From a virus, in IMG/VR virus record IMGVR_UViG_3300025413_001414, positions 1 to 64,000 of that record: DNA of 64,000 nucleotides; one strand, written 5' to 3'. This document shows, piece after piece, positions 3,894 to 49,016 of this stretch; positions within the stretch are counted from its first letter, which is position 1, and every line of letters begins with the position of its first letter. Made by a program: the position numbers and the translations under genes. The notes beneath the pieces are model-generated. The model was given only the letters and a program-made list of their open reading frames with translations. It had not been told where the DNA came from and made no database searches.

Positions 3894-5501
3894 TTAACTT
3901 TGGATTTTGTTTTTATATAAAAATAGTTTGTTACCACTATTATATATTTTTAAATATTTTAATTTTTTAAGTATTTCATTTTCAGTTAGATTTGGATCGT
4001 GACCCATTTTAGTTAAATTTTGCTTTCTCATTGAAAATCTATTTTTCCTATCAAAATTTTTAACATAGAAGTATCCAGGTTTTGTGAATTTTTCAAATTC
4101 AAATCCAAGTTTAATATATAATTTACCAGATGAATAATCATTATTAGAATATGATATAATATTATCAAATTTATAACTAGATATGAAATATTTAAATAGC
4201 TTAGAAGCTCCACCAACTATATTATATCCAATTTTATTACAAAATCTTATTAACTCATAATCACTGTCATTACCATTTTTATTTCCAAGTGATAATCTCT
4301 TTTTTCCAAATGTCATTATAGAAACTAATTCGTCTTTATAGAAGAGTCCAATATTTATTTTAGACACACACCAACCTTGAATGTGATTATTATTGATAAA
4401 ATTTTTAACTAATTTAAAATCCTTTACTTCTTTAATAACACACTTTCTAGCAAAAATTTTATTTGGTGTTTTCCCCAGCTTATTCAATATCATTGATCTA
4501 ACTATTTCATTTTTATTCTTCCAATCATCTTCCCATATCTGAAAAAGATCTATTCCTATTTCAGAACATCTTTTAAATTTATCATAGTGGTAATTCTTAT
4601 CTTTCCAATTTGTAGAATGCCAGTAAACACCATTTAATTCAATTGCTAATTTTTTATCATCTATAAAATAATCTAATTCTAGATTATTTAGAACTTTTCT
4701 ATTTTTGATTTCATATTGAATATTACTTTCATTCAATAAAAATGAAATTTCCTTTTCTGGATAAGATGAGTATATTGGAAAACAAATTGTACATATTACT
4801 TTTTTATTCAAAATTCGTTCCCTTAGAATGTTATTATTTATGACAAAACTATTTCCACAAAAATTACAATCACATATATATCCTTTATTATCATATCCAG
4901 TTATTTTCACTATATAAGAATATTTTTCCTTTATCTGATTTAACGAATCAGATAATCTATTTTTTAATATTTTTTCCCTATCTACTAACTCAAATGGATT
5001 CTCAACTCCATATTTCATCATACAGGTGTTTCTTATCCTTTCTTTTATTTCTTTATTCTTTATAGCAGAATCAACTCCATAAATTTCAATCATTGATTTT
5101 TTAATCTTATCTTTTATTAAATCATTTTTTACTGGGTGCCCTCCATATTTTTTTTTATTAGTTTCTATTATTTTTTTCTTGATCAAGTCCAATTCAAATA
5201 TGTTTTTAACACCATATTTATCTATATTATGATTATTTCTCTTGATGATGGAACACTTTTCAGAGCAACAATATATATCAATCATATCATTTGTATTTAT
5301 TAGATAATTTTCCCATTTTATAGACTTTGTATTGCCGCATATGTCACATCTAACATTTATATAAAAATTTCCCTTTTTAAATGGATAATCAATAGGTGAT
5401 ACTTTTATAAAATCTCCTAATTTTATATCAACTTTTTTAGTTCTCAAATATGATATATTTCTAGTAGAAGCTTTTATACATATCTCATTATCAATTATCA
5501 T
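3894..5501 (-). CDS. KYGV-repeat homing endonuclease, paralogue 1
   Basis: This 535-residue protein has an N-terminal zinc-ribbon-like part (CDICG, later CCSEKC), then roughly 25-residue repeats with the core KYGV (IYGVDSA, KYGVENPFEL), then a C-terminal nuclease-like domain. The nuclease segment has the line ELDYFIDDKK...IELNGVYWHS followed by YHYDKFKRC...QIWEDDW, like a Vsr/PD-(D/E)XK-type fold. Three more copies of this architecture are in the window (34713, 47181, 60275). The start overlaps the stop of the baseplate gene as TAATG, so the element sits exactly at that gene's end and is probably translationally coupled to it. The free-standing homing role is an inference from family and context. 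Confidence 0.8.
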   Translation of the reverse strand: MIIDNEICIKASTRNISYLRTKKVDIKLGDFIKVSPIDYPFKKGNFYINVRCDICGNTKSIKWENYLINTNDMIDIYCCSEKCSIIKRNNHNIDKYGVKNIFELDLIKKKIIETNKKKYGGHPVKNDLIKDKIKKSMIEIYGVDSAIKNKEIKERIRNTCMMKYGVENPFELVDREKILKNRLSDSLNQIKEKYSYIVKITGYDNKGYICDCNFCGNSFVINNNILRERILNKKVICTICFPIYSSYPEKEISFLLNESNIQYEIKNRKVLNNLELDYFIDDKKLAIELNGVYWHSTNWKDKNYHYDKFKRCSEIGIDLFQIWEDDWKNKNEIVRSMILNKLGKTPNKIFARKCVIKEVKDFKLVKNFINNNHIQGWCVSKINIGLFYKDELVSIMTFGKKRLSLGNKNGNDSDYELIRFCNKIGYNIVGGASKLFKYFISSYKFDNIISYSNNDYSSGKLYIKLGFEFEKFTKPGYFYVKNFDRKNRFSMRKQNLTKMGHDPNLTENEILKKLKYLKIYNSGNKLFLYKNKIQS

Positions 5502-11047: not shown

Positions 11048-11089
11048 GATATAACAAAAGGTTAATCCATTATTTTAATATATACCTTT

Positions 11090-11725
11090 ATGAAATGGAT
11101 TAAAGGATATAAAAGTTTTACAGAATCTATTAAATTCGATCTCTCAATTGTTAATATAGATATAAACGAATCTTTAAGTATTTGGTATGATGCTCTTTTG
11201 GATTCTATTGGGGCGGAAGAAGTTGATATCTTTGATACTTTCAAGCTTCCTAAAGACGACTACGTTGATAAATTAGACATAGAATATCTTTCTGATAATA
11301 TTGAATTCATTAATTCTCTATCTAGTATAGGATTAAAAAAAGCTTCGATGCAGAGCTCAGATGATTTTGAAACTTTTGTAAATAAACCCTGTAGATTTAT
11401 GTTTATTTACAATATAGAATCCAATGAACTAGAAAATCCAAATTATTTATTGATACAAAGTTGGAATGATACTTTGAAAAAATGGGATAATAGTAAACTC
11501 TATAAAGTTAATGATGATATCAACAAGTTCTACAATAAGTTAAGCTCTAAAATTATTGAAGTAGAAGATGATGGTGAGAAATACATATACAACACGTCCA
11601 ACAAAGGTAATGAATGGATTCTACAAAACTTAGATGCTGAAAATGATACTTTTAAAAAGTATTTAAGAAAAGAAGATTTTGAAGATCTTTTAAAACAAAG
11701 AAAAGTTAAAATTAGAGTTATTTAA
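11090..11725 (+). CDS. Hypothetical protein with possible capsid-targeting start (211 aa)
   Basis: The N-terminus MKWIKGYKSFTES fits the recurring tag of this genome (compare T4 internal-protein MKTYQEFIAEA). The remainder is acidic and soluble without known motifs. A TTTTAATATATA box lies just before the start. The stop overlaps the ATG of the decayed gene at 11725 (TAATG). Packaging into the head is an inference from the tag only. Confidence 0.65.
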   Translation: MKWIKGYKSFTESIKFDLSIVNIDINESLSIWYDALLDSIGAEEVDIFDTFKLPKDDYVDKLDIEYLSDNIEFINSLSSIGLKKASMQSSDDFETFVNKPCRFMFIYNIESNELENPNYLLIQSWNDTLKKWDNSKLYKVNDDINKFYNKLSSKIIEVEDDGEKYIYNTSNKGNEWILQNLDAENDTFKKYLRKEDFEDLLKQRKVKIRVI

Positions 11726-12024
11726 TGAAGCATTTAAAAAGATTTAACGAGTCATTTGATCCAGAAGATTATTTAGACTACCTTTATCTGAAGTTGAAGA
11801 GTCTAATATAATATCTAAATATCAAATAGATAAAGATTTTTATAAAAGATATTAAATGAGATAAACACCCTGTCTTAAAAGAGATACAGGGAATTGGATC
11901 TTATCAAGATAGAATAGGAGTAGTTGAATTTTGGCCACAACAAGAAGATGATGAACCTATCACAATTTCAGAAAGTGACAAGATATATCTACAATATACA
12001 CTATTTAAATATCTTGGAAAATAA
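11725..12024 (+). pseudogene. Decayed small gene with MKHLKRFNES start
   Basis: The frame starts MKHLKRFNESFDPEDYLDY, then needs a shift to continue as LPLSEVEESNIISKYQIDKDFYKRY. A stem CCCTGT/ACAGGG (11869-11892) follows, and another frame gives GIGSYQDRIGVVEFWPQ through TLFKYLGK to TAA 12022-12024. The parts look like one protein split by at least two lesions. The start is the same N-terminal tag as in neighbouring genes. The original function is unknown. Confidence 0.6.
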
Positions 12025-15490: not shown

Positions 15491-15546
15491 AAATCTATAT
15501 ATAAAGAAGAATCTTTTTTGAGTCTAATAATTTTATATATACTTTT

Positions 15547-16278
15547 ATGAAACTACATCAATTAACAATCGAAGAATTGGTAGAATTAAGAACTAAAATG
15601 ATTCTTGAAAAAAAATCTACTAAAGAAATTAACCCAATCATTGAGAAAAAGGAAAAAGAATATTCTGATTCATTAATGGAAGATGGTGGAGGTGGTGGCG
15701 GAACTGCTGCTACTGGTGGTCCTGGTGGAGCAGTTGCTAGTGCTTCTGTAGGTTTTGGCGGTGGTGGAGTTGCTATGGGCAATGCAGCTCATGGTGGTAT
15801 GGGTAATGTAACAGCTGCTCAACCATCTACAATGCCAGGTGCTACTATCGGAAGTGCTTGGTCTGGACATGGTGGTACTATTGGCTCAGGTGATGTAGCA
15901 AATCCTTTTCCAGGTGGCGGAAATGTTTATCAAAAATCTCCAGCTATGGATATGGGTAAATCTCATGGTGCTAGAACTGGTAAAAAGAAAAGAGTTAAAA
16001 AATTAGATTTAAAAGCTCTTAAAAATACATTTGCAACAAAACAAGATTTTACTCAAGGATCTGAACATAAATCTAAAATCATGAACTTTAATGATTTTCA
16101 AAAACAAGGAGTAAATAAAGTAACAAAAGTTAAAGAATCTTTAGATAGTGAATATTTAGGTGATTGTGAAAAGTGCGATACTAAAATTTATAGAGAAGAT
16201 TGTTATTCAGGTGAATATCAATGTCCTAATTGCGATCATGCTGGGAAAATATATGAATTAAGAAATTTTAAACCATAA
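15547..16278 (+). CDS. Glycine-rich protein with C-terminal zinc ribbon (243 aa)
   Basis: Residues 1-45 are helical. Residues 47-135 are almost only G, A, S, T, P and M (probably disordered). A basic patch follows (KKKRVKKLDLKALK, about 146-160), and the last 45 residues hold two CxxC pairs (CEKCDTKI and CPNCDHAG) that should bind one zinc. The start codon of the next gene is one base after the stop, so the two genes are co-expressed. The pattern suggests a flexible linker between a nucleic-acid or protein-binding ribbon and the N-terminal helix. Function unknown. Confidence 0.65.
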   Translation: MKLHQLTIEELVELRTKMILEKKSTKEINPIIEKKEKEYSDSLMEDGGGGGGTAATGGPGGAVASASVGFGGGGVAMGNAAHGGMGNVTAAQPSTMPGATIGSAWSGHGGTIGSGDVANPFPGGGNVYQKSPAMDMGKSHGARTGKKKRVKKLDLKALKNTFATKQDFTQGSEHKSKIMNFNDFQKQGVNKVTKVKESLDSEYLGDCEKCDTKIYREDCYSGEYQCPNCDHAGKIYELRNFKP

Positions 16279-16279
16279 G

Positions 16280-17686
16280 ATGATTAAAAAATATTTAGAA
16301 TTTTTAAAAGAGGCTAAAGAAGAAAAAAGCTATTACAAACCAACTAATTTAATACAAGAGTTGTGTGTTGGTATGCTTTTAATTAATAACAGTTTCTTAG
16401 ATAATATCTTAGATAAAGGATTAAAAGCTAGATATTCAGAAAATTCACAAGTGTTTTTAACAGATTTAAAAAATCTTTTATTTGCTAAAAATAGATTACA
16501 CTTAGGCAAATTTATAGGTAATGAATGTGTATCTGAAGACGAGCCATCAAAAGTAAATGGTTTATTTGAATCAGTTTCGTTTAATATAGAAGACGATTGG
16601 AATAAACTAGTTAATGCTAGATTAATTGCCAGAAATATTATTGATAAGTTGTTACCAGATGAAAAAGTTACTGAAGACAGAGTTAAACATGTTTTTTGGA
16701 TAGGTCCTAACAAAGATGAAGATCACCAAGAAGACATGGTTGTTGAACTTTCAGATGGTAGACAATATTCTTTTTATTTAAATAAGAACTTATCTTCTTC
16801 TAAAACTGCAAGTTTTAACACATTTGCTGATGATTTAATTGGTAATGAAATTGATAAATTATATGGTCCTGAATATATTGCAAAATGGAATAAACTAGTT
16901 CAACAATGGGTTAGGACTATTTATGATAATGCTAATAAGAATGTTCAAGTACATATCGAAAAATTTATTGATGAAGATAGAATTGATTCTTTAGATTGGT
17001 TTAGATATTTTGAAATTCAACACAGAGACCCAAGATACAAACATCTTGGTGAATATATCAAAGAATTTGATAAAAACATTTTATATTTTTCTGATTTGAT
17101 GTCTGAAATTTGGAAACATCGTGATATGTGTTTCATGGATGTTGAGAGGGTTTATAATGAATGGGAAGAAACTAAAATATTTATTTTAAATTCTAAGATA
17201 TTAGAACATTTATTAACTGAATCATTGACTAAGAATAATATAGATGATATTAAGAAATTAGATGATGGGTTCAAATTAGCAGAAGGCACTGTTAAGATGA
17301 AATTGGTTAAGACTATTGTTGAAAAAATGGGATGCTCTGAAAGATATACTTATTATTTAGGTAATAATGGTAATATATTTAATCAAATTCCTTCTAGAGA
17401 TTTCTTTAGAAGCATCTATAACGATTTAACAGTTAAGTTTGACTATCATGTTAAATTCTTAGTAGAAGAGGAAGAGGAAAATAATGATTTTAATATTAAA
17501 ATATCGGTCTTGTTGGATAATGATGTATTAATTAAGTTTAATATACTGGTTAAATTTGCTGGTGGTGACATTAGTTCCAAGCTAAGCGCTAAATATTTTT
17601 TTCATCTTAGTGATGACTTTAACTATAGGGTATCAAACATAGAAAAGTCTGAATCAGAAAATGAATTATCTACCCAGAAAACCTAG
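16280..17686 (+). CDS. Hypothetical protein with capsid-targeting-like start (468 aa)
   Basis: MIKKYLEFLKEAKEE closely parallels the T4 capsid-targeting peptide MKTYQEFIAEA, including an LxE-A cleavage-like site (residues 9-12). The body is a large soluble, mostly helical protein with no family I recognise. It starts one base after the zinc-ribbon gene and converges with the HNH gene, overlapping it by 17 bases. If the tag is real, this would be a major internal head protein injected with the DNA. Confidence 0.65.
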   Translation: MIKKYLEFLKEAKEEKSYYKPTNLIQELCVGMLLINNSFLDNILDKGLKARYSENSQVFLTDLKNLLFAKNRLHLGKFIGNECVSEDEPSKVNGLFESVSFNIEDDWNKLVNARLIARNIIDKLLPDEKVTEDRVKHVFWIGPNKDEDHQEDMVVELSDGRQYSFYLNKNLSSSKTASFNTFADDLIGNEIDKLYGPEYIAKWNKLVQQWVRTIYDNANKNVQVHIEKFIDEDRIDSLDWFRYFEIQHRDPRYKHLGEYIKEFDKNILYFSDLMSEIWKHRDMCFMDVERVYNEWEETKIFILNSKILEHLLTESLTKNNIDDIKKLDDGFKLAEGTVKMKLVKTIVEKMGCSERYTYYLGNNGNIFNQIPSRDFFRSIYNDLTVKFDYHVKFLVEEEEENNDFNIKISVLLDNDVLIKFNILVKFAGGDISSKLSAKYFFHLSDDFNYRVSNIEKSESENELSTQKT

Positions 17687-18524: not shown

Positions 18525-19099
18525 ACAATCATATCCGAGTTTTCTATAGTGACTTCTGGACTATGGGTAACCCAACTGATATTTCTTTATCAGAATTTAA
18601 TAAATCATGGTTTGCAGTTTGGTGGAATAATAAGTATGGAATAGGAATAGCCCAAAGTGATCCTACCGTTACACAACCACAAGCTTGGAGAATACCTCTT
18701 GTTTATCAATTTCAACAATCAATATTATCACCACAAGTTTGGTCTGACACATGGCATCATATAGCCATCGTAAGAGATCCAACATCACCAGGATATAATG
18801 AGGATCCGAATGTTCCAACTCTTTGGAGATGTTATATTGATGGTCAGCTTATTACAGTTGCTCATGATCCTTATAATTTTAATGGATTATATGGAGTCCA
18901 AAACAATTCAATATTACCAACTACTGGAAAAATTGTAATAGGTAAAGATCCTTCAAATGGGTATATTGAAGGTAATGGCAGATTTAATATTTTAGGTGGA
19001 CCTGGACAAATGTATTATGATGGTTATATAAGCGAATTAAGAGTTAGTGATATAGCAAGATACACAGATAGCTTCACACCACCTACGAATCCTTTTTAA
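18509..19099 (+). CDS. LamG/concanavalin-like domain protein, 5'-truncated
   Basis: About 190 residues follow the LamG jellyroll pattern: WFAVWWNNKYGIGIA, TWHHIAIVRDP, WRCYIDGQLI, and the ending YISELRVSDIARYTDSFTPP. The first strands of such a domain and any ATG start are missing. The frame opens at a TTG inside the divergent HNH gene. Proteins of this kind are often fibre or adhesin domains binding glycans. This one is probably a broken or 5'-deleted virion gene. The next gene follows after 29 bases. Confidence 0.65.
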   Translation: MYYRTNNHIRVFYSDFWTMGNPTDISLSEFNKSWFAVWWNNKYGIGIAQSDPTVTQPQAWRIPLVYQFQQSILSPQVWSDTWHHIAIVRDPTSPGYNEDPNVPTLWRCYIDGQLITVAHDPYNFNGLYGVQNNSILPTTGKIVIGKDPSNGYIEGNGRFNILGGPGQMYYDGYISELRVSDIARYTDSFTPPTNPF

Positions 19100-19128
19100 C
19101 AGAAAAAGATTGTAGTAATATATAACTA

Positions 19129-22032
19129 ATGGCAATTAAATTTTCATTATCACCTGCACCATTATTTTTAGTACCTGATATCAAATCGTTAGTAAAGTTC
19201 TCTAATGGTGATTTAGGCATATCAGATCAAACCAAGTTAAGAACAATTGCCAAAAATGTATCTAATTCTAAATCAGATTCACAATTAGACCAACTTAAAA
19301 ATTTAATGGGATTTACATTAACTGGTGCAAATAGCAGTTATTATAAAAATGGAAAATATCAAATATCAACATCTGACATTAACTTAACACATAATAATGA
19401 TCTATCAGGATTAAAAGCTCTTGAAAAGTCTTTAATACAATCTATATTTGAGAGCCAAAAGCCTTATGCTGAGGTGTTCATACAAACAACTGGAGTCTTA
19501 GTTAAGATAGAAGATATAATTGCTCGTGTTTTATCTGTTGGTGGATCATCCCTCAAACCTTTTTATAATCCAAAAGCTTTAGGATATGGTGGATCAGAAT
19601 TAAATAGTGAGTTATCTAAATTACAATCTTTAAAAAATAAACAAAGAGGACACGGTAACACCCAAAGTGGCATTAATAATAATAAGGTAAAAACAACTGA
19701 TCAACCAAATATTGGTTATGAGTATAAAATTGACTCAATAGTTTATTCAACAGGTGAATATGATCCAACGGTTAAATATAATTATGAATATAGAGATATT
19801 TTAGATGATACTATAAATTTAAGCGATTTAAGTAATAAAGGAGTTGACGTTTTAAATCAAGAAAACAATCAACCAAAACCAAAGATTGTAGTTTTTGGAA
19901 TATTTAATAGTAAAGGACATGTAGTTGATAATGTACCATCTTGGTTAGAAAAAAGTGGCAAGTGGTTTGGACACTTTGATATGGTTACTAATTTTAAGTA
20001 TATTTGGTCTAAGCAAAATTTAGCTGATAAAATATCATTTGGATCACCCGGTAAAGGATGGGTTCAAAAAAAAGATATAATAGGAAATCCGATTGTAGTT
20101 GCTGGGACAGGTAGTGAATTGAATTCAATTGCTAATTATTACAATGATCAAATTCAAAGAAATTTAGATGATCTAAATATAGAGAAACAACAACAAACTA
20201 AAATAAAAAGCCAATTAAATCAAAGTTTAAATTCTGGAACTCAATCAATTTATCAAACTCAATTAGATACAATAATCAGTTCAGGATTTTTACCAACTGT
20301 CCAATTAACAAATGGCAAAAATCCAATTGGAAAATATCCTTTTCTTCCTAAAAATATTGTTTGGTCTGGAACAAGCTCAACAATAGGACTCGGATTAACA
20401 GGATCAACAACACAAGTTTGGATAGACCCTGAAAATGACTATGATATGAAATTGATTCAGATTAAGCCACAATTTGTAATCAAATTTTATGATAGTAAAA
20501 ATAATTTAATTGAAGGTGTGATTGATCCATTATCTATATTGAAACATTTACAAAAAAATCAAGTTGAGGTTATTGTCACTGGTGGCAGTAAATTAGGACA
20601 CACCATGGTTATTAACATAGAGCAGATTGACAATTCTAAATTAAAAGTCAATACACCATATTCAAAGGGATATTACGGATCAAGTACAGATGGTCAAAAA
20701 CAAACTATAGAAGTTTTATACAGATACGCAACAGCTTTGAATGATACTGACCACTATTATATTGTTGAAGGTATTTTATCATCAGAGAATACACAATCAT
20801 TTCCTGTAGTTGATAATGGTATCAGTGTTAATGGTAGTGGATACTATAGATTTCCTAAGGGACCGATTAGCGCAATTGGTGCTTTTATAAGAATGTTAAT
20901 AGATGTTTTTTCAAAATTGTTTCCATCAATTTCACTTTTAGAAAATATACTTGCTAATCCAGCTTCTTTTATTGTTGAAAGTGTTATACTTAAAAAAATT
21001 GGTGATAACAATGGAACTGAGGGTATAAAGTTTGATATTTTTTCAGAAGATTTTCTAAAAGATTTTAACACGATGATTAGTATGGACCCTTCTTTAAGAA
21101 AATCATTTGTAAGTAATTCTAAATTAAAAGATTATGTTTATGTTGGTGAAGATAATAATTACCAATTTCTATTAGATGGAAAGTCAATGGTAAGTTTCCT
21201 ATCTGCTAATTTTGGAATAAGCTTATCAAATTTAACTCCATCACTAATAACAAAAAGCTTACAGGAACAAGGATTAAGTGCATCAGTTCCACCTATGCCT
21301 AATGTCCCACTTGGTGGAATTAAACTACCGGATACACAACCAATATTGGAATTTTTATTAAATTTAGTAACATTCCCGTTAAATATAATTAAAAGCATTA
21401 TTGAATATATAATGAATTTTTTTAAAAAATTAAGCAATCCATTTGAGTTACCAAGTGCTATTGTAGAATTTGTTGGATTCGAGTGGTTATCTAAGTTATT
21501 TAATCCTATTTCGTTATTGGAAATTTTAGATATAAAATTCGATGTAATTAAGTTTGGATATTGGATTGCCGCAATTGATACTTACCCAGATTCGCATTTG
21601 TTTGATTTAAGTGAAATCATATCAATGCCATTTATACCACCTATGTTTAAAGCAACAAAAAAGCAACTATTAGAGTTAGAAAAATCTCCGATGGAGTTTT
21701 TAAAAGCTATAATTTGTCTAATTGCTGATATAATAAATTCTTTTATAGATTTTATATGGAGTCTAATGGGGTTAACTCCTATTTTACCACCACCACATGT
21801 GAATTTATGTAATGATATAAATAAGGCTATAGTTAATAATAAACTTCAAGGTTCGTTTGGGACACAATCATCGATAGAATCTCAACTTAATTCAAATCCA
21901 ACTCAACAGTCATATGAATATTTATATAATATAACTTTATCTGATGGGACAATTTTAACAAATTTAACATATGATCAATTACAAAAATACTTATCAGAAC
22001 ATAGTGATATAGAGTTTGATTTTAATTTCTAA
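19129..22032 (+). CDS. Very large putative virion protein (967 aa)
   Basis: No known domain is recognised. Residues 1-170 look folded, and 170-330 are linker-rich (SKLQSLKNKQRGHGNTQSG). The rest mixes beta segments with several moderately hydrophobic helices late in the protein (NLVTFPLNIIKSIIEYIMNF, WLSKLFNPISLLEIL, IICLIADIINSFIDFIWSL, about 740-880) that could be membrane-active or buried. Size and position beside fibre and LamG genes suggest a structural or injected protein. I cannot assign it to a T4 homologue. Confidence 0.6.
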   Translation: MAIKFSLSPAPLFLVPDIKSLVKFSNGDLGISDQTKLRTIAKNVSNSKSDSQLDQLKNLMGFTLTGANSSYYKNGKYQISTSDINLTHNNDLSGLKALEKSLIQSIFESQKPYAEVFIQTTGVLVKIEDIIARVLSVGGSSLKPFYNPKALGYGGSELNSELSKLQSLKNKQRGHGNTQSGINNNKVKTTDQPNIGYEYKIDSIVYSTGEYDPTVKYNYEYRDILDDTINLSDLSNKGVDVLNQENNQPKPKIVVFGIFNSKGHVVDNVPSWLEKSGKWFGHFDMVTNFKYIWSKQNLADKISFGSPGKGWVQKKDIIGNPIVVAGTGSELNSIANYYNDQIQRNLDDLNIEKQQQTKIKSQLNQSLNSGTQSIYQTQLDTIISSGFLPTVQLTNGKNPIGKYPFLPKNIVWSGTSSTIGLGLTGSTTQVWIDPENDYDMKLIQIKPQFVIKFYDSKNNLIEGVIDPLSILKHLQKNQVEVIVTGGSKLGHTMVINIEQIDNSKLKVNTPYSKGYYGSSTDGQKQTIEVLYRYATALNDTDHYYIVEGILSSENTQSFPVVDNGISVNGSGYYRFPKGPISAIGAFIRMLIDVFSKLFPSISLLENILANPASFIVESVILKKIGDNNGTEGIKFDIFSEDFLKDFNTMISMDPSLRKSFVSNSKLKDYVYVGEDNNYQFLLDGKSMVSFLSANFGISLSNLTPSLITKSLQEQGLSASVPPMPNVPLGGIKLPDTQPILEFLLNLVTFPLNIIKSIIEYIMNFFKKLSNPFELPSAIVEFVGFEWLSKLFNPISLLEILDIKFDVIKFGYWIAAIDTYPDSHLFDLSEIISMPFIPPMFKATKKQLLELEKSPMEFLKAIICLIADIINSFIDFIWSLMGLTPILPPPHVNLCNDINKAIVNNKLQGSFGTQSSIESQLNSNPTQQSYEYLYNITLSDGTILTNLTYDQLQKYLSEHSDIEFDFNF

Positions 22033-24357: not shown

Positions 24358-25181
24358 TTTTAAAAAGTCCTTTAAATTATAGTGGTAGTAAAGACAAAAT
24401 TATTACACAACTAATTAAATATTTTCCCAAAAAAGAAGATGTGAATACTTTTTATGATGTGTTTGCAGGTGGTTTATCAGTTACTATCAATACTGACTAC
24501 AACAAATATATTTCTAATGATATTATCAATCCTTTAATAGAGTTTTATGAAATTTTACAAACAGCATCAATAACAGACAAAATAGATTCTGAAATTGAAA
24601 AAATTGTTAGTTTTAAGATTAATAAAGAATCACAAGAGGAATTTCTTAGAGTAAGAGAACGTTTTAATGAAAGTTATGATCCATATTTATTTTTTTCTTT
24701 GGTTTCATCTTGCACTAATAATTTAATGAGATTTAATCAAAAATTTAAATTTAATCAAACATTTGGTAAAAGAACTATAAATGATAACACTATTCAAAAA
24801 TTAAAAGAATATTGTAACGTCTTAAAAAATAAAAATATTCAATTTACTAATCATCATTTTAGTAATTTATTTCAAATACATCCACCTAAACAAGGTGACT
24901 TTATTTATTTGGATCCACCTTATTATCATATAACCTCTGCTGGATATAATGCTTTTTGGAAAAAACAGGATGAAGAATATTTACATCAAATATTAGATTC
25001 ACTTGATAGTAATGGAATTAGATTTGCATTAAGTGGTGTTTCAAAACACAAAGGAAAAGATAATCCATACATGAACAGAATAAATAAATATAAAGTAATT
25101 AAGATTGAACACGATTATGAAAAAGTAGCTAAAAAGAAAGATTTAGGAGAAACGCAAGAGATTTTGGTTATAAATTATTAA
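24354..25181 (+). CDS. D12-class DNA N6-adenine methyltransferase
   Basis: A 275-residue Dam-like enzyme. LNYSGSKDKI (7-16) is the SAM-binding start, FYDVFAGGLSV (33-43) is motif I-like, and DPPYY (187-191) is the catalytic motif IV. It methylates adenine in a short DNA site. In phages this protects against restriction or marks phage DNA. The start overlaps the preceding stop (ATGA). A second, divergent D12 enzyme is at 27671. Confidence 0.93.
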   Translation: MILKSPLNYSGSKDKIITQLIKYFPKKEDVNTFYDVFAGGLSVTINTDYNKYISNDIINPLIEFYEILQTASITDKIDSEIEKIVSFKINKESQEEFLRVRERFNESYDPYLFFSLVSSCTNNLMRFNQKFKFNQTFGKRTINDNTIQKLKEYCNVLKNKNIQFTNHHFSNLFQIHPPKQGDFIYLDPPYYHITSAGYNAFWKKQDEEYLHQILDSLDSNGIRFALSGVSKHKGKDNPYMNRINKYKVIKIEHDYEKVAKKKDLGETQEILVINY

Positions 25182-25207
25182 TATATAATAAAAAATAAAT
25201 TACTTTT

Positions 25208-25756
25208 ATGGAAATAAAAAAATATTCAGATTTCACTATAAATGAAGCTAAAGTTAAAAAAGAAGAAATTATCGATAAATTATTAGATTTATTTAAGAAG
25301 AAGCCTCATGTAGAGATGGACAGACTATCAAATGAAAAAGGATTATATTCTTTATCTGGTATGAAGAAATATCTTTCTAATTATACTACTCTTCAAGTAG
25401 ATCAGGCTTTACATGATATTAGAAATGATAAATCTACTGGTTTAAAAGTTATCAGAGTTTTTATTAATGTATGGGATGAGTCTATGCCTTATTATTATAT
25501 GGATTTAACTGAAGCAGAAGCTAAGAAGATTAAATCTGAATATGAAGAGCAAGAAATGAAAAAGAATAAAGAAGAAATAGATAAAACAACTGAACGTAAA
25601 AAGGGTCAAAAAGCAGCAACAGGAGCAAAATTAGCAGCAAAAAAAGAAGAAACTGCAAAGAAAGCAGCGGTAAGAAAAAAGGCAGCTCCTAAGAAAAAAG
25701 CTTCTGGTGAAGGTGTAGAAAGAGCACCAAGAACAAGGAAAAAAACATCTAAATAA
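25208..25756 (+). CDS. Lys/Ala-rich, histone-tail-like protein with capsid-targeting-like start
   Basis: MEIKKYSDFTINEA parallels the T4 MKTYQEFIAEA tag with an IxE-A site (residues 11-14). Residues 20-110 form a compact domain (LYSLSGMKKYLSNYTTLQVDQALHDI). From about 115 on, the protein is a K/A/E-rich tail ending KKAAPKKKASGEG-RAPRTRKKTSK, like histone H1 tails. This suggests a DNA-binding protein that may be packaged with the genome. It ends at a strong terminator and is followed by an Hc1-like gene. Confidence 0.7.
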   Translation: MEIKKYSDFTINEAKVKKEEIIDKLLDLFKKKPHVEMDRLSNEKGLYSLSGMKKYLSNYTTLQVDQALHDIRNDKSTGLKVIRVFINVWDESMPYYYMDLTEAEAKKIKSEYEEQEMKKNKEEIDKTTERKKGQKAATGAKLAAKKEETAKKAAVRKKAAPKKKASGEGVERAPRTRKKTSK

Positions 25757-34712: not shown

Positions 34713-36440
34713 ATGCAAAACTATACATTTTTATATAATGATACAAAGTTAGACAAAAACAAACTAAAAGAGGATTGGATTAAGAAAAATGTCCCATCTT
34801 TATACAAAGATGTTATATCATTCTCAAACATGATAAACTTTGAGTATTCCAAATTTTCACAATTATTATATCATTATAAAATAAATAAGACTGAATTGCC
34901 AATATGTGACTATTGCAAAAAAGAAAATAAAAGATTTATTGGATTTGATTATGGATATAAACTAGGATGTAGTAGACATTGTGCAATTTTACTAACAAGA
35001 CCAAAGTCAAATGAAACTAGGAGATTGAACACATTAGAAAAATATGGAGTTGAACACACCACCCAACTAAATTCAGTTAAAGAAAAAATAAAAAAAACCA
35101 ACATTAAAAAGTATGGAGTAGAACATGCTTCACAGAATGAAAATATTAAAAATTCAATTAAAAAAACAAACAATATACGATATGGTACTGATTTGCCTCT
35201 TCAAAATTTACAAATTAAGAATAAAATGATTGATAACTTTATAGAAAAGTATGGTGTCAGTAACCCAATTTTACTAGATTCAGTCAAAAATAAAATTAAA
35301 AAAAATAATTTGAAAAAATATGGATGTGAATGGCACATATCTTCTGATATTATCAAACAAAAAATAAAAAATTCACAATATCTTCATAATTATAAAAATA
35401 TTGTTTCTAATTATGGTAAAATCGATGGATTAAATATAATATCATATGAAAATAATATAGTAAAATTTTATTGTGAAAAGTGTAACAATGAGTTTGAATC
35501 AAATTATGTACATCTTTATAATAGACATATCAGAGATAAATCTAATATTTGTACTATTTGCAATCCACTAAATAACAAAACATCTAATGGACAAAAAGAA
35601 ATTATAAATTTTTTAAAGGAACTAAGAATAAATATTACAGTAAATGATAGAAAAATAATAAATCCATACGAAATAGACATTTATCTAAAAGATTATAATT
35701 TAGGTATTGAGTTTAACGGCATATATTGGCACTCTGAAATAAACAAGGATAATGGCTACCATTATGATAAGTATAATAGATGCACACAAAAAGGTATTGG
35801 ACTAATTCAAATTTGGGAAGATGATTGGACATATAAAAAGGATATAATAAAGTCAGTGATAAAAAGTAGGATAAATAAGAATTCATCAATTGGTGCTAGA
35901 TTATGTATCATAAAAGTAGTTTCAAATGAAGATTCTAAAATTTTTCTAAATGAAAATCATATTCAGGGATGGTGTATTTCAAAATATAGATATGGATTAT
36001 ATTTTGAAAATAATCTAGTTAGTATATTAACAATTTCAAATAGTAGAAAAAATATTACTAAAAATGCAAAAATCGGAGAATATGAAATAGTTAGATTTTG
36101 TAATAAAATTGGAACAAATATCATTGGATCTTTATCAAAACTTTGGAAGTTTTTTGTAAATGAAATAAATCCGGTAAGAGTTATTTCATATTGTGATAAT
36201 GATCTATTTAGTGGTAAATCCTATTATAAAATAGGTATGAAATTAGATAGTATGTCATTTAATTATTGGTGGTGTGATGGTGATAAAAGACAAAATAGAT
36301 GGAATTTCAGAAAAGATAAATTAATAAGTGAAGGATATGATAGAGAAAAAACTGAATCAGAAATAATGATAGAAAGAGGATGGTATAAATGTTATGGATC
36401 TGGTAATAAAAAATTTATTTGGAATAAAGATAATATTTAA
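34713..36440 (+). CDS. KYGV-repeat homing endonuclease, paralogue 2
   Basis: A 575-residue protein with an N-terminal zinc-binding part (CDYCKKEN, later CSRHC), at least five KYGV-type repeats between about 105 and 215 (KYGVEHTTQL, KYGVEHASQN, RYGTDLPLQN, KYGVSNPIL), and the nuclease segment EIDIYLKDYN-LGIEFNGIYWHSE plus QIWEDDW. It sits between the MoxR and 36497 genes in opposite orientation, so it probably inserted in the gap. A TTTAATATATA box is upstream. Confidence 0.8.
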   Translation: MQNYTFLYNDTKLDKNKLKEDWIKKNVPSLYKDVISFSNMINFEYSKFSQLLYHYKINKTELPICDYCKKENKRFIGFDYGYKLGCSRHCAILLTRPKSNETRRLNTLEKYGVEHTTQLNSVKEKIKKTNIKKYGVEHASQNENIKNSIKKTNNIRYGTDLPLQNLQIKNKMIDNFIEKYGVSNPILLDSVKNKIKKNNLKKYGCEWHISSDIIKQKIKNSQYLHNYKNIVSNYGKIDGLNIISYENNIVKFYCEKCNNEFESNYVHLYNRHIRDKSNICTICNPLNNKTSNGQKEIINFLKELRINITVNDRKIINPYEIDIYLKDYNLGIEFNGIYWHSEINKDNGYHYDKYNRCTQKGIGLIQIWEDDWTYKKDIIKSVIKSRINKNSSIGARLCIIKVVSNEDSKIFLNENHIQGWCISKYRYGLYFENNLVSILTISNSRKNITKNAKIGEYEIVRFCNKIGTNIIGSLSKLWKFFVNEINPVRVISYCDNDLFSGKSYYKIGMKLDSMSFNYWWCDGDKRQNRWNFRKDKLISEGYDREKTESEIMIERGWYKCYGSGNKKFIWNKDNI

Positions 36441-38109: not shown

Positions 38110-38304
38110 TTATTTTTTTATATCTTTCGTAAATAAATTTGTTGAGAATTCAAAAAAAGATATAATATGTTCATTAACCTTGTGTTTATTTACCTTACCA
38201 CAGTTAGTACATTTTGATTCCTTTTCCTTTTCTTTAGAAGTATAATTGATTGTGTATTTATGATTGCACCCTTTACAAAGTACAAATTTATCTTTGACTT
38301 TCAT
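38110..38304 (-). CDS. Zinc-ribbon protein (64 aa)
   Basis: LCKGCNHKYTINY and SKCTNCGKVN provide two CxxC pairs of a zinc ribbon. It overlaps the upstream deoxynucleotidase gene by 17 bases and abuts the carbonic anhydrase gene (one base), so the three are co-expressed. Function unknown. Confidence 0.7.
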   Translation of the reverse strand: MKVKDKFVLCKGCNHKYTINYTSKEKEKESKCTNCGKVNKHKVNEHIISFFEFSTNLFTKDIKK

Positions 38305-38788
38305 TAAAATATTCTAATATTTTATCCCAATTTTCATAAGGAGGTTTGCCATATTGTAATTGGGTTCCTTTGAATCCTGGCCAAGGCATATCATCAATTA
38401 AATAATCTCCTATTAATAAATCTTTATTGGGTGATATAATTAACTTCTGACAAAATTTTAAATCAAAATGTTTTTCAATCCAAAGTCTTTTCTCTGTATA
38501 ACAAAGTGGATTCATATAGGATGGTCTAGTTAAAATATAAACATCAAAAGATTTTCTTAATTTATTTACTGCATCAATAGCCCCTTCCAAAGGTTCTAAT
38601 TGTAGAAAAAATCCTTCTTTAGATTGTGGGTATTTTATATCTGGATGTAATTCACGCATTTCATGATAATGTGATAAATAATCACAAATGGTATCGTCCA
38701 TATCAATATATACTATCTCTTTCCCCTTTAACTCATTATCATCAATAGGTGAATAAACATTGGTCTCAAATCTTTTTAAGTATTTCAT
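38288..38788 (-). CDS. 5'(3')-deoxyribonucleotidase-like HAD phosphatase with N-terminal tag
   Basis: VYIDMDDTICDY (27-38, nucleophile Asp29) and YLIDDMPWPGFKGT (C-terminal third) are the HAD motifs of NT5C-type deoxyribonucleotidases, which dephosphorylate dNMPs. It starts MKYLKRFETN, matching the recurring N-terminal tag. A promoter-like TTAATATATATTAATATATA block lies between this gene and the divergent one at 38825. Confidence 0.85.
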   Translation of the reverse strand: MKYLKRFETNVYSPIDDNELKGKEIVYIDMDDTICDYLSHYHEMRELHPDIKYPQSKEGFFLQLEPLEGAIDAVNKLRKSFDVYILTRPSYMNPLCYTEKRLWIEKHFDLKFCQKLIISPNKDLLIGDYLIDDMPWPGFKGTQLQYGKPPYENWDKILEYFNESQR

Positions 38789-38790
38789 AT

Positions 38791-38815
38791 TAATATATAT
38801 TAATATATATTAATA
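38791..38815. promoter_or_regulatory. Divergent TTAATATATA box
   Basis: Overlapping copies of TTAATATATA read in both directions between the divergent genes 38288 and 38825. The same box stands 10-40 bases before many other genes and resembles an AT-rich phage late promoter. Confidence 0.5.
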
Positions 38816-38824
38816 CAAAATTAC

Positions 38825-39286
38825 ATGAGACATATAAAAAAATTTGAATCTTTCTCAAGTGAAAGAGTTGGTGATGAACTAGTAACATATATTGACAATA
38901 TTTTTTATGGCTATGATAAATTTGAAAGTTTATTATCAAATGGTGAGATAGAAGAGATAACTGATGCTGAAGTTGAACGAATTAAATATTTAATTGATTT
39001 AGAAGAACCTTCACCGATAAAAAAGTATGAAATTGGCAAAAGATTTAGATCTGATAATTTTAAATCCTGTGTAAGTTTTGATATGAATTTTGGTCGTAAA
39101 AATGGAACCGGGTATATTATATTCTATAAATTTAAAGATGAATGGTGGTTAGTTGAATTATGCACAAATGAAAATGCGACATCCAGATCGCGCAATAGAA
39201 GAGCATACAAAGCTTGGTTATTAGACAGTATGGATGGTATAGAAAAATGGGCAGATACAGAACTTGAAAAAGTTTTAGAAGTATAA
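38825..39286 (+). CDS. Hypothetical protein with N-terminal tag (153 aa)
   Basis: MRHIKKFESFSSERVGDE carries the recurring tag. The remaining part is a compact alpha/beta domain (GTGYIIFYKFKDEWWLVELCT) of unknown type. The 58-residue gene at 39292 follows after five bases. Confidence 0.65.
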   Translation: MRHIKKFESFSSERVGDELVTYIDNIFYGYDKFESLLSNGEIEEITDAEVERIKYLIDLEEPSPIKKYEIGKRFRSDNFKSCVSFDMNFGRKNGTGYIIFYKFKDEWWLVELCTNENATSRSRNRRAYKAWLLDSMDGIEKWADTELEKVLEV

Positions 39287-41967: not shown

Positions 41968-43143
41968 TCATATAATTTCTTTAAATTTTTCAATTTCTAA
42001 TCTCTTTATTTCCTTACCTAATTCAGCACCTTTGAATCCTTGTTTCATTAACTCTTCAGCTGAAACAGATGGTTTGTATTTTATAAAAGCCAAATGAGTT
42101 GCATCATTTATTTGATTTATTTTATACCAATCTAAGATAACTTCATCACTAACTCTCGCAACTGTTCTCTTTTTATACATTTCTGTAACATCATCTACTT
42201 TAAAATCTAAAAGAGATATCAAGAAAACTATCCTTCTAGCCATATCCACTTCAATTTTACAATCTTGAACTAACTTATCTAATATATTTTTGTTTTCTTT
42301 TAACAAATTAGCTAAGTAAACTTCTAAATATTTAGAATCTCTGATATCAGTATTGATTTTAAAGCCAGGTAGAATTTCTTCCCATAATCCGAATTTAGTC
42401 AATAGATTTAAATATTCTGAAAAATCTTTGGCTTGTTTGAAAGCTTTTTTAAGCTCATCCCAAATTCTCTCTTGTGATACATCATCTTTTGGACTTATAC
42501 CTCTTAATCTATTATCTTTTCTTATGGCTTGATCCGTTTTAGAATCAATCTTACCACCAGTTCTTGTGGCAAACCTCAAAATTCTAAGGATTCTTAGACG
42601 ATCTTCTATAAATCTCTTATTAGCATCACCTACTGCTCTAACTATACCATTTTTTATATCATCAACACCACCAACTAAATCAACTATCTGTTTGTTTTTA
42701 ATGTCATAGAATAGAGCATTCATAGTCAGGTCTCTTCTATTACAATCATCTTCAATAGTTACATCACCACCTACTTCAACTTTTTTTTCATCGCCTTTCG
42801 TATCTCTACCACCAGAAATATCCCTTCTATAAGAAGCAATTTCATAACCGCCTGGTTCATCTTTTGTATAGACTCTTAATACACCAAAATTTTTACCTTG
42901 TTCATCAGAAATATTGAATTCTTTTAATATTTCTTTTGATTCATTAGGAAGAGCATTTGTTACCAAATCATAATCTTTTGGTTCTATACCTTGTATGAAA
43001 TCTCTAACTGCACCACCGACTAAAAAGATGTCTTTACCTGCTTTAATATAAGCATTTGATATGTCTATAATATCATTTGGTAGAGGAATTTCTGTTGAGA
43101 TTTTATTCTCATTTATAAATTGTCTATATCTTTTAATTTTCAT
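41968..43143 (-). CDS. tRNA nucleotidyltransferase (CCA-adding / poly(A) polymerase family) with N-terminal tag
   Basis: A 391-residue protein. The class II nucleotidyltransferase motif FLVGGAVRD (40-48) is followed by PKDYDL (Asp57/Asp59) and [10 protein letters not shown]. The RNA-binding helices contain [13 protein letters not shown]. It adds or repairs the CCA end of tRNAs. The first residues [13 protein letters not shown] match the recurring tag with an IxE site, unusual for a housekeeping enzyme and suggestive of packaging. A truncated second copy is at 43625. Confidence 0.9.
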
Positions 43144-43611
43144 TTTGGTTCATTTTTTTCTTTCTTTCTATCCAAGCAAGTTTCATTTTTAACTTGTGTT
43201 CTTCTGATTTTGGTTTACCTTTTCTTATCTCTGATAGCTTCTTTTTTGTTTCTTCGAATAACTTTTTACCTTTTTTTGATTGAGATAATTTCATTTTTGC
43301 TTCTTCTTACATAGGAATTCCCTTATTCCAAGATTTTGTTCCTTTTTTAGTTTTGGAAATTTTGTCTTTTGTGTTGTTTGAGTGCTTCTTACCATAAAAA
43401 CTATTTTTTTACCTAACTTTGATTCTGATTTCTTTTTCCTAGTATCTTCTGGTTCTATCCTACCTGTCAATGCTTTAGATATTTTACTTTTTGTTTCTTC
43501 TGAAAGAGTGTCGACATATTTTGGATGATTTTGTCCTGCAGATGTTGATCCTATGTAGAATTTAGGTAATTTATCACCACTATAAGTAACTAAGTATGTA
43601 ACATATTTCAT
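43134..43611 (-). pseudogene. Broken GIY-YIG endonuclease
   Basis: The 106-residue opening frame (43291-43611) has YVTYLVTYSGDKLPKFYIGST at the start, as in GIY-YIG enzymes, but the core is missing and NUMOD3-like DNA-binding units follow at once (LSEETKSKISKALTGR). Further NUMOD3 units continue in another frame (about 43134-43296: [19 protein letters not shown]). Deletion and frameshift have inactivated it. It lies between a complete and a truncated CCA-adding enzyme gene. Confidence 0.75.
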
Positions 43612-43624
43612 ATGTAAATATAAA

Positions 43625-43870
43625 TTAAAATTTTAATATATATAAATTAATTAGTTCTAAAACTTCATCTGGAGTAGCATCAGTGCATAAGTCAAAATCC
43701 TTTGGTCTCTCATTATTTAGAAAGTCTCTAACCGCACCACCTACTACAAACAATTTTTTATGATGTTGTTTGAACAATTGATGTAAATCTTTAACAGATT
43801 GTGTAATAATATTCCACATATCACTTTTACTTTCTAAAAATTCATTGTATTTAGTATTATCATCTTGCAA
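43625..43870 (-). pseudogene. N-terminal fragment of a second CCA-adding enzyme
   Basis: The 81-residue frame contains [20 protein letters not shown] and DLCTDATPDEVLEL, colinear with residues 40-75 of the complete enzyme at 41968 but clearly diverged. The protein stops after the first motif block, right where the GIY-YIG remnant begins. It was probably interrupted by that insertion and then lost its 3' part. Confidence 0.8.
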
Positions 43871-43952
43871 ATGTAGTCAAAATTTTAATATATATGGACA
43901 AAGAAGATCAGGTCGTGGATATTTTAATGGTGTAAAAACTAATATATAAGTA

Positions 43953-44195
43953 ATGAGACATATAAAACTATTTGAGGATTTTAAACAAAAAAATATCACA
44001 ACTGATGATATAATTGAATGTATAAATAATGGTGGAGTTTTATATGCAACTATTATTAAAAATTTTCCAGATAATGATCCAGAAATACCATTAAATCCAG
44101 TAAGTGTGGATAATGAAGGAACAGTAACGGTAGAATTAGATGGGAAAAACTATGAGGTTGAATTAAGACATGTAGATAAAATAGAGTGGAGATAA
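43953..44195 (+). CDS. Hypothetical protein with N-terminal tag (80 aa)
   Basis: MRHIKLFEDFKQKN carries the recurring tag with an LxE-D site. The remaining 65 residues are a small beta-rich unit (GTVTVELDGKNYEVELRHV). An ACTAATATATA box is just upstream. It is followed after 22 bases by the 44218 gene. Confidence 0.65.
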   Translation: MRHIKLFEDFKQKNITTDDIIECINNGGVLYATIIKNFPDNDPEIPLNPVSVDNEGTVTVELDGKNYEVELRHVDKIEWR

Positions 44196-47180: not shown

Positions 47181-49016
47181 ATGGTATTAGATAAAAAAAT
47201 AAAAGTTAAAATAAACAAAAAAAATATTTCACATTATATTCAATTTTATCCATCAATAAAATTAAAGGATATTATTGAGGTTGATGTTGAGAATCATTTA
47301 ATGAAAGGAAGTAATCAAAAAATAAACGTCCAATGTGATATCTGTGGAATTGCTAGGTTTATAAATTTCCAATCATATAATATTAATTTAAATTCTTGCC
47401 CGGAATATCCAATTTATACTTGTGATAAATGTTCTCATATTAAAATAAAAGAGTATAATAAGAAAAAATATGGCGTAGAATATTATTCAAAAACTAAGGA
47501 ATATTCAGAAAAGTTTAAGAGTACAATGATTGAAAAATATGGAGTAGAATATGCTTTACAAAGTGATGAATTAAAAAAAAGGCAAATAAATAATAATTTA
47601 GAAAAATATGGTAAAAAAAATGTTTTTCAAGTTGATAAAATTAAAGATAAAATTAAAGAGTATAATAAGGAGAAATATGGTGTAGAACATTATTCAAAAA
47701 CTAAGGAATATTCAGAAAAGTTTAAGAACATAATGATTGAAAAACATGGGGTTGAAAGTCCACTTCAAGGTGGGAGTGTCTCAAGAGAAAAGGCTAAAAA
47801 TACGATGTTAAATAAATATGGAGTTGATGTATATGCAAAAAGTAGTGAATTTTTAGAAAAGGTTAAAATAACCAATATGAAAAAATATGGAGTTGAGTGG
47901 ATAATGAAATCAGATATTTTTAAAGACAAAAGCAAAAAATCTATTAAAAATAGATATGGTGTTGATAATATAGCTAAATACGAGAAGCATAGAAAGGATT
48001 TTAAAATATCTAACGATCCAAATTATATAAAATATGTAAACGAAGGCATATCGCTATTAAAATGTAACAAAGGACATGAATTTGAGATACCATCACATAT
48101 CTATTATAATAGAAGTAAATATAAAATAAATTTATGTACAATGTGTAATCCAGTTGGCGAAAGTTCATCTATAAAGGAAAACGAACTATTTGATTTTATA
48201 TGCAATAACTATAGAGGAGAAATAATAAATTCATATAGGGATAAAAAGGAAATTGATATTTATTTACCAGAATTAAAATTAGGATTTGAATTTAATGGAT
48301 TATTCTGGCATTCAGAATTATATAAGGAAAAAAACTATCACTTAGATAAAACAATTTTATTTAAGGACAAAGGTATAAGCTTATTTCATGTATGGGAGGA
48401 TGATTGGATGTATAAACAGGATATAGTTAAATCGATGATTTTAAACAAATTAGGTGAAACTCCTAGTAGAATATTTGCTAGAAAATGTGAAATTAAAGAA
48501 GTTACTGATAGTAAATTAGTTAGATATTTCCTAAATAAAAATCATATTCAAGGATTTGTTGGATCAAAAATAAAATTAGGGTTATATTATAATGACGAAT
48601 TAGTTAGCTTAATGACATTCGGTAATTTACGAAGATCTTTAGGCCAAAAAAGCAGTGAAGGATCATATGAATTATTAAGATTCTGCAACAAATTAAATAC
48701 CAATGTTATTGGTGGTGCTTCTAAATTACTCAAATATTTTTTAAAATTTAATAATGTCAGGGAAATTATTAGTTATAGTGATTTAAGTAGATCTAATGGT
48801 AATATGTATCAACAATTAGGATTTAAATTACAACATAATTCTAATCCTAATTATTATTACATTATTGGTGGTATTAGAAAACATAGATTTGGATTTAGAA
48901 AAGATGAATTAGTTAAGGATGGATTTGATCCGAATAAAACTGAAATTCAAATAATGAATGAAAGAGGTTATTATAGGATTTTTGATTGTGGAATGCAAAA
49001 ATGGGTATTAAATTAG
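47181..49016 (+). CDS. KYGV-repeat homing endonuclease, paralogue 3
   Basis: A 611-residue protein with N-terminal zinc ligands (CDICGIARF, CDKCSH), about eight KYGV units between 95 and 275 (KKYGVEYYSKT, EKYGVEYALQS, EKYGKKNVFQV), then the nuclease signature EIDIYLPELK-LGFEFNGLFWHSE and HVWEDDW. Two repeat blocks (EYSEKFK, KYGVE-YYSKTK) are nearly identical within the protein, showing recent internal duplication. It fills the gap between divergently placed minus-strand operons. Confidence 0.8.
   Translation: MVLDKKIKVKINKKNISHYIQFYPSIKLKDIIEVDVENHLMKGSNQKINVQCDICGIARFINFQSYNINLNSCPEYPIYTCDKCSHIKIKEYNKKKYGVEYYSKTKEYSEKFKSTMIEKYGVEYALQSDELKKRQINNNLEKYGKKNVFQVDKIKDKIKEYNKEKYGVEHYSKTKEYSEKFKNIMIEKHGVESPLQGGSVSREKAKNTMLNKYGVDVYAKSSEFLEKVKITNMKKYGVEWIMKSDIFKDKSKKSIKNRYGVDNIAKYEKHRKDFKISNDPNYIKYVNEGISLLKCNKGHEFEIPSHIYYNRSKYKINLCTMCNPVGESSSIKENELFDFICNNYRGEIINSYRDKKEIDIYLPELKLGFEFNGLFWHSELYKEKNYHLDKTILFKDKGISLFHVWEDDWMYKQDIVKSMILNKLGETPSRIFARKCEIKEVTDSKLVRYFLNKNHIQGFVGSKIKLGLYYNDELVSLMTFGNLRRSLGQKSSEGSYELLRFCNKLNTNVIGGASKLLKYFLKFNNVREIISYSDLSRSNGNMYQQLGFKLQHNSNPNYYYIIGGIRKHRFGFRKDELVKDGFDPNKTEIQIMNERGYYRIFDCGMQKWVLN

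Follow-up and report, generated by a model that had tools for sequence, protein, structure and literature searches.

The internal proteins of phage T4 begin with MKTYQEFIAEA, a peptide that targets them to the prohead, where gp21 cuts it after the Glu. Of this capsid-targeting sequence (CTS), residues 4 and 7 are needed for targeting and residues 8 and 10 for processing by gp21, a protease that cleaves after (L/I)xE and also shreds its own scaffold (PMC9026906). The ejection proteins of phages SPN3US and phiKZ carry removable N-terminal propeptides that are often longer than 100 residues (PMC5694885). Late transcription in T4 is directed by promoters of the sequence TATAAATA (PMC1524935).

The DNA analysed here, called the window in what follows, comprises bases 1-64000 (64,000 nucleotides) of IMGVR_UViG_3300025413_001414, an incomplete record of 78,698 bases. 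Its closest named relatives are LR756502 (642 kb; W01 below), LR745206 (635 kb; W02) and LR756501 (735 kb; W03), whose matching proteins have median identities to those of the window of 48%, 51% and 37%, respectively. Genomes above 634 kb have been placed in the Mahaphage clade, with Bacteroidetes as predicted hosts (Al-Shayeb et al. 2020, PMC7162821). W01-W03 were analysed as full genomes, with genes taken from a simple open-frame caller; gene starts are predicted, and a start correction was applied before profile counts. The N-terminal peptide, or tag, was searched for by a strict regular expression anchored at the N-terminus, [ILVM][KR]x[FY]xxF, with the expectation given by the internal rate in the same proteins, and by an iterated 16-column profile, one version of which was trained on W01-W03 only and included no window sequence.

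N-terminal tags in the window and its relatives

The initial annotation had pointed to eight similar N-termini on otherwise unrelated proteins. All of them are present, and when the 761 ATG starts of the window (at least 20 aa) were scored with the profile trained on W01-W03, the top eight were exactly these. The positions had to be amended in part, since the peptides exist but the genes of the CCA-adding enzyme (tRNA nucleotidyltransferase) and the deoxynucleotidase had been cited by their low coordinate, the tags themselves lying at 43105-43143 and 38759-38788. The tags, with their profile scores, are:

11090-11128 (+), tag MKWIKGYKSFTES on a 211-aa protein (gene 11090-11725); 13.6
11725-11811 (+), relic, tag MKHLKRFNES heading a 28-aa open frame; 19.3
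16280-16315 (+), tag MIKKYLEFLKEA on a 468-aa protein with no assigned function (gene 16280-17686); 20.2
25208-25249 (+), tag MEIKKYSDFTINEA on a 182-aa protein (gene 25208-25756); 9.3
38759-38788 (-), tag MKYLKRFETN on a deoxynucleotidase-like protein (gene 38288-38788); 10.7
38825-38863 (+), tag MRHIKKFESFSSE on a 153-aa protein (gene 38825-39286); 24.6, the highest in the window
43105-43143 (-), 13-residue tag on the tRNA nucleotidyltransferase (gene 41968-43143); 20.6
43953-43988 (+), tag MRHIKLFEDFKQ on an 80-aa protein (gene 43953-44195), whose W01 orthologue is tagged; 16.8

The peptide at 11725 heads an open frame of only 28 aa and counts as a relic. Taken alone the tag at 25208 is weak, because its score of 9.3, the eighth, nearly equals the 9.2 of the ninth start; the W01 orthologue is strongly tagged (MEVKRYNQFINEA, profile 19.0). 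Orthologues of the 11090 protein are tagged in W02 (MRYIKSYKTFKES) and W03 (MRIKGYNKFVKED), as is the W02 orthologue (MILKKYKMFLES) of the tRNA nucleotidyltransferase, in which the PolyA_pol match (E=8e-30) begins at residue 39. The deoxynucleotidase-like protein matches Pfam NT5C at residues 55-135 (E=7e-12), and its W02 homologue is without a tag and starts about 20 residues closer to the domain.

Some other features of the window may be recorded here. At 43625-43870 (-) lies a truncated duplicate of the N-terminal part of the tRNA nucleotidyltransferase, with a tag-like ...TKYNEFLES resembling the W01 and W02 orthologues; it adjoins a 106-aa frame at 43291-43611 (-) that by eye is like a GIY-YIG homing endonuclease. 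Apparently a gene was broken (43291-43870, -) and then replaced, the intact gene 41968-43143 lying beside it. Four long frames, at 3894-5501 (-), 34713-36440 (+), 47181-49016 (+) and 60275-62104 (+), share motifs close to their N-termini, among them I-x-V-x-C-D-[IV]-C, and by eye resemble a dispersed family of zinc-finger/HNH-type homing endonucleases.

The genome-wide motif search that the initial annotation had proposed gave N-terminal matches to the strict expression in 6 of the 107 genes of the window genome, where 0.2 would be expected, and seven tagged genes (6.5%) by profile. The expression matched 65 of 983 genes in W01 (1.06 expected), 55 of 951 in W02 (1.13) and 51 of 1024 in W03 (1.35), and with the profile and start correction the tagged genes numbered 170 (17%), 158 (16%) and 112 (11%), respectively, shuffled N-termini of the same genomes giving 0.7-1.7 profile-positive genes per genome. 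The enrichment is confined to N-termini. The tagged share of sampled genes was 4.3% in LR756500 and 4.2% in LR756504 (200-kb sample); elsewhere it was 2% in T4, 1.2% in Lak-A1 (3/257) and 0.4% in GAP32 (1/275), and none of the 116 genes in a 50-kb sample of PA5oct was tagged. Once the first 18 residues were removed, 417 tagged proteins fell into 332 BLAST clusters. A degenerate-DNA search for the KIFE subtype found at least 119 viral stretches as against one in 84,980 prokaryote genomes. IKKYx[QE]FINE, searched for without anchoring, gave 25 viral sites, and in 24 of these a Met lies within three codons. Same-strand neighbours among the tagged genes number 61, 34 and 56, roughly three times the 21, 10 and 19 of shuffles. 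The scale of tagging in these giant phages, 11-17% of the genes of W01-W03, is new here; literature searches on targeting tags in huge phages and for a proteome of these phages found none. Arrays of five to seven tagged paralogues (MKHIKPYKIFES...) occur on three IMG/VR contigs (L303, L312 and L261) and hold repeats of leucine-rich appearance such as LEYLPLKFNYVSGGFSC.

Likeness to the T4 peptide and the protease-scaffold protein

When the same profile was applied to 1580 ATG starts of T4 (at least 40 aa), the internal proteins IPIII, IPII and IPI ranked second, fourth and fifth. The first place was taken by gp61.1 (MKTFKEFIKED; 18966-19130, -, locus L193) and the third by a 76-aa frame at 114210-114440 (+; MLLEFKQFLYEA, locus L112). 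Scoring with or above the known internal proteins, these two are possible candidates for further T4 head cargo. The tag columns of highest conservation are an aromatic i/i+3 pair and the I/L preceding it; columns 0 (Y/F) and +3 (F), with 3.1 and 2.1 bits, correspond to T4 positions 4 and 7. All four T4 positions are retained in the subtype [IL]KKYxxF[IL]NE. The subtypes MKHLKxYKIFES, MKHLKRFNES and MKYLKTFESF keep the aromatic, and IxE is absent from them at the T4 position. Members of the FxxE subtype have I, L or V two residues before the Glu in 71 of 89 cases, and the FNE and FExF subtypes are without (L/I)xE there, so that a clear gp21-type (L/I)xE site at the T4 position is predicted only for the FIxE subtype.

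A gp21-like protease, which the initial annotation had suggested looking for, was found in W01-W03; the incomplete 78.7-kb record of the window itself holds no protease gene. The gene order in W01 is portal (Portal_T4, E=1e-57), S77 protease and capsid protein (Gp23, E=4e-28), and in W03 a Gp23 gene (E=2e-25) adjoins that of the protease. Matches of the protease to Pfam Peptidase_S77 reach 20-24 bits, below the 27-bit cut-off. With its predicted structure as a Foldseek query the sole significant match was T4 gp21 (5jbl, E=2e-8), and its His (E-x-D-H-P) and Ser (V-S-S-R) motifs align with those of gp21. By predicted fold and catalytic residues, the protease of the relatives thus belongs to the gp21 family.

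One polypeptide comprises the protease and a scaffold-like region built of 14-residue tandem repeats, NIAYSEYIAENLDK. Aligned to MKTYQEFIAEA, the repeat agrees with it at Y4, E6, I8, A9 and E10 and has Tyr in place of F7. In an unbiased ranking by internal [FYW]xx[FY][ILVM]xE sites the protease-scaffold protein came first in all three genomes, with 11, 11 and 14 sites as against 2, 3 and 7 in the next-best proteins. Only this core flagged the scaffold; scanning protein interiors with the full FIxE profile missed it, because the residues preceding the aromatic differ. Among 14 IMG/VR homologues the Tyr, Ala and Glu are invariant in most repeats, and in the structural model residues 235-448 form roughly one continuous helix, predicted at moderate confidence (pLDDT mostly 60-79, overall 63). 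Clear repeats are found in W01, W02, W03 and LR756504 and degenerate ones in LR756500. They are absent from Lak-A1, GAP32 and PA5oct, which do have S77 proteases, and from T4 gp22, and since gp22 is without such a repeat, docking via scaffold mimicry would be unnecessary in T4. On alignment, the tag looks like a single unit of the repeat in the scaffold, a likeness that is new here, and it may bind the way the repeat does.

Small standalone proteins made of three to four copies of the scaffold repeat were also seen, at 460435 (-) in W02 (83 aa) and at 619760 (+) in W03 (207 aa), the latter ending in the peptide DPYGEEDW. A second S77-like frame of 178 aa with altered catalytic motifs (GELGYP, RPRAAG) lies at 11314-11850 (-) in W03 (locus L043). 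In W03, 92 proteins, for instance those at 154863 (-) and 44452 (-), contain the peptide LDPYGEE(N/D/I)W, with 107 copies in all. In 40 of the 92 it stands near the C-terminus, and 34 of the 92 are also N-terminally tagged (11% expected). The peptide has zero occurrences in W01, W02 and the window genome.

Upstream element and proposed cargo

Leaders, taken as at least 50 bases to the next upstream gene, were searched for [AT]ATATATA. The TAATATATA element is present on 93% of the leaders of tagged genes (42/45, 38/41 and 31/34), as against 27-36% of those of untagged genes (73/244, 62/227 and 94/262) and 10% in shuffles, and it is mostly placed 0-10 or 20-30 bases before the ATG. Counting one tagged gene per cluster, the figures are 39/42, 37/40 and 29/32. 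The element was found on 12 of 12 head and tail genes tested and on 4 of 13 replication genes (none of six for B-family polymerase, three of three for topoisomerase); it is not exclusive to virion genes, because topoisomerase genes carry it. In each large genome two separate genes match B-family DNA polymerase (120483 and 253958 in W01, 130568 and 232803 in W02, 90179 and 709334 in W03), as if the polymerase were split. Each of the seven intact tagged genes of the window has a copy of the element, either in front of the gene itself or in front of the one that leads it:

11077-11084 (+), element [AT]ATATATA, 6 bases upstream of 11090
15534-15541 (+), element at -13 of 15547, in the leader of the 15547-16280 operon
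25180-25187 (+), element before 25208
38792-38811 (both strands), overlapping elements in the gap from which the tagged genes 38288 (-) and 38825 (+) diverge
43637-43644 (-; from offset -33), element 25 bases ahead of 43291-43611 (-), a gene that immediately precedes the tagged 41968 gene and overlaps it
43941-43948 (+), element before 43953

That tagged genes and head and tail genes have an upstream element in common is new here. The element would be a late promoter; since their leaders share it with head and tail genes, cargo proteins such as the tRNA nucleotidyltransferase, RNA ligase and Acb1-like phosphoesterase seem to be late products.

The majority of tagged proteins are without a Pfam match; in the window those with one include the tRNA nucleotidyltransferase and the deoxynucleotidase. 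Families represented among tagged proteins include RNA ligase 1, PPK2, SET, 2'-5' ligase/Acb1-like phosphoesterases, NFACT-R and CoaE, and further NUDIX, GNAT, methyltransferases, a nucleotide-cyclase domain, HNH and two wall hydrolases. The wall hydrolases are odd as head cargo and count against packaging. A sample of long untagged proteins, classified by Pfam, included ribonucleotide reductase, topoisomerase, tRNA synthetases, RNB, sugar-nucleotide enzymes and portal. Enzymes that repair tRNA or destroy cyclic-nucleotide signals would, if produced late, be most readily understood as cargo carried into the next infection.

Interpretation and comparison with known systems

The initial annotation had proposed a shared packaging tag of T4 type, and the sequence evidence supports one: the profile matches the T4 internal proteins, the conserved columns include T4 residues tested by mutation (PMC9026906), and a gp21-family protease, tag-like scaffold repeats and an element common with head and tail genes are found. 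We consider it probable, at roughly 80%, that the tag is a T4-type CTS used on a very large scale, by which cargo would be loaded into the head and delivered to the next host. Cargo genes would be transcribed late, alongside those of head and tail, as their common TAATATATA element suggests. The N-terminal tag, [IL]Kx[YF]xxF, could then dock the cargo on the scaffolding core, or on the scaffold's own binding site; docking on the core is proposed because the tag resembles one unit of the helical repeat Y-S-E-Y-I-A-E. The shell would close around core and cargo, and the protease, to judge from its homology to gp21, would cut FIxE-type tags after the Glu, the other subtypes being perhaps cut elsewhere or left uncut. 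The enzymes would stay beside the DNA and reach the next host along with it, and tRNA repair and cyclic-nucleotide-degrading, nucleotide and protein-modifying activities could act there immediately. Packaging, attachment to the scaffold, cleavage and entry into the host are in this sense proposals drawn from the sequences. Against this reading stands LR756504, which has scaffold repeats yet only 4% tagged genes in the 200-kb sample.

Three other explanations deserve to be weighed. The tag might be no targeting signal but a favoured start sequence, useful in translation or recombination and copied from gene to gene; AT-rich starts do help translation, some tagged genes are tandem paralogues (those of L303, L312 and L261), and tagged genes cluster. 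This is the least probable of the alternatives and is already contradicted by several observations. Synonymous codon use in the tags equals that of gene bodies, Shine-Dalgarno content does not differ for tagged genes, and the carriers form 332 unrelated clusters. Among 410 W01-W02 orthologue pairs both members are tagged in 40, where 6.8 would be expected (p=3e-33), and in these the three key columns are 63-75% identical as against about 20% for the residues past the tag. The tag is kept even where the subtype changes, as it does in 30 pairs: orthologues of the 16280 protein are 62-70% identical in their bodies and have starts of another subtype, MKWLRGYKLFTES in W01, MKWLRNFELFKEA in W02 and MKVIRKYHLFLEA in a further orthologue (L387). 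Selection on the tag is on protein sequence, not DNA. Some orthologues of CoaE, RNA ligase and the deoxynucleotidase are without a tag and start near the domain; no general N-terminal extension was seen across tagged/untagged pairs (medians 3 and 2), because many "untagged" partners have weak or mis-started tags.

There are two further explanations. The tag could send late proteins not to the head but to another phage-made place in the cell, such as a replication or assembly compartment, and its N-terminal position, conservation and late-type expression would fit that too; we nevertheless regard it as unlikely, since it leaves unexplained why the same profile picks out the packaged internal proteins of T4, why the core motif recurs in the scaffold repeats and why there is an FIxE site. 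Alternatively the core motif might be a protease recognition site only, present in repeats and tags as both are cut, and without a role in targeting. The repeats do hold many IAE/LAE sites and the FIxE tags hold IxE, and in T4 the scaffold is shredded by gp21, whose cleavage follows (L/I)xE (PMC9026906). However, the KIFES, FNES and FESF subtypes keep the aromatic and the preceding [IL]K and not IxE at that place, and the aromatic positions of T4 serve targeting rather than cutting (PMC9026906), which makes a pure cleavage site quite improbable.

To return to the T4-type CTS, the tagging of 11-17% of genes suggests that each virion brings a large enzyme kit into the infected cell. A bolder version, to which we give even odds, is that the tag is one scaffold repeat standing free of the others and the scaffold a helical rack on which about a dozen almost identical faces allow docking, so that a start of 12 residues would suffice to make a protein cargo. 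More than 100 kinds of protein would then be produced late and packed, and would go to work in the next host before any phage gene is read. If so, the cargo would include tRNA repair enzymes, anti-CBASS-like phosphoesterases, protein modifiers and nucleotide enzymes. A readable tag predicts 100-170 packaged proteins per genome, proposed to act early in the following infection, in the largest known phages, which have roughly 1000 genes, the majority without an assigned role. The tag also offers a structural idea of how a CTS functions, namely that it may copy a scaffold repeat, and the tags are short sequences suited to trial in T4.

Compared with the propeptides of SPN3US and phiKZ, the tag belongs likewise to giant phages, and those phages package and eject many proteins (PMC5694885); their propeptides have no single common short motif and another cleavage motif (PMC5694885), unlike the huge-phage tag. 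The closer likeness is to the CTS of IPI, IPII and IPIII of T4, with which the tag shares its N-terminal place, a length of about 10-14 residues, the aromatic i/i+3 pair, unrelated carriers and, in one subtype, IxE, in phages that have an S77 protease and a T4-type portal and capsid protein. It differs in scale, with 112-170 tagged genes per genome against the handful of T4, in having several subtypes and many enzymes as cargo, and in the resemblance of its core to scaffold tandem repeats that gp22 does not have. The head machinery likewise agrees with gp21 and gp22 in the gp21 fold, the catalytic motifs and the order portal, protease/scaffold, capsid protein, and departs from them in that protease and scaffold-like region form a single protein with 10-14 copies of the 14-residue repeat.
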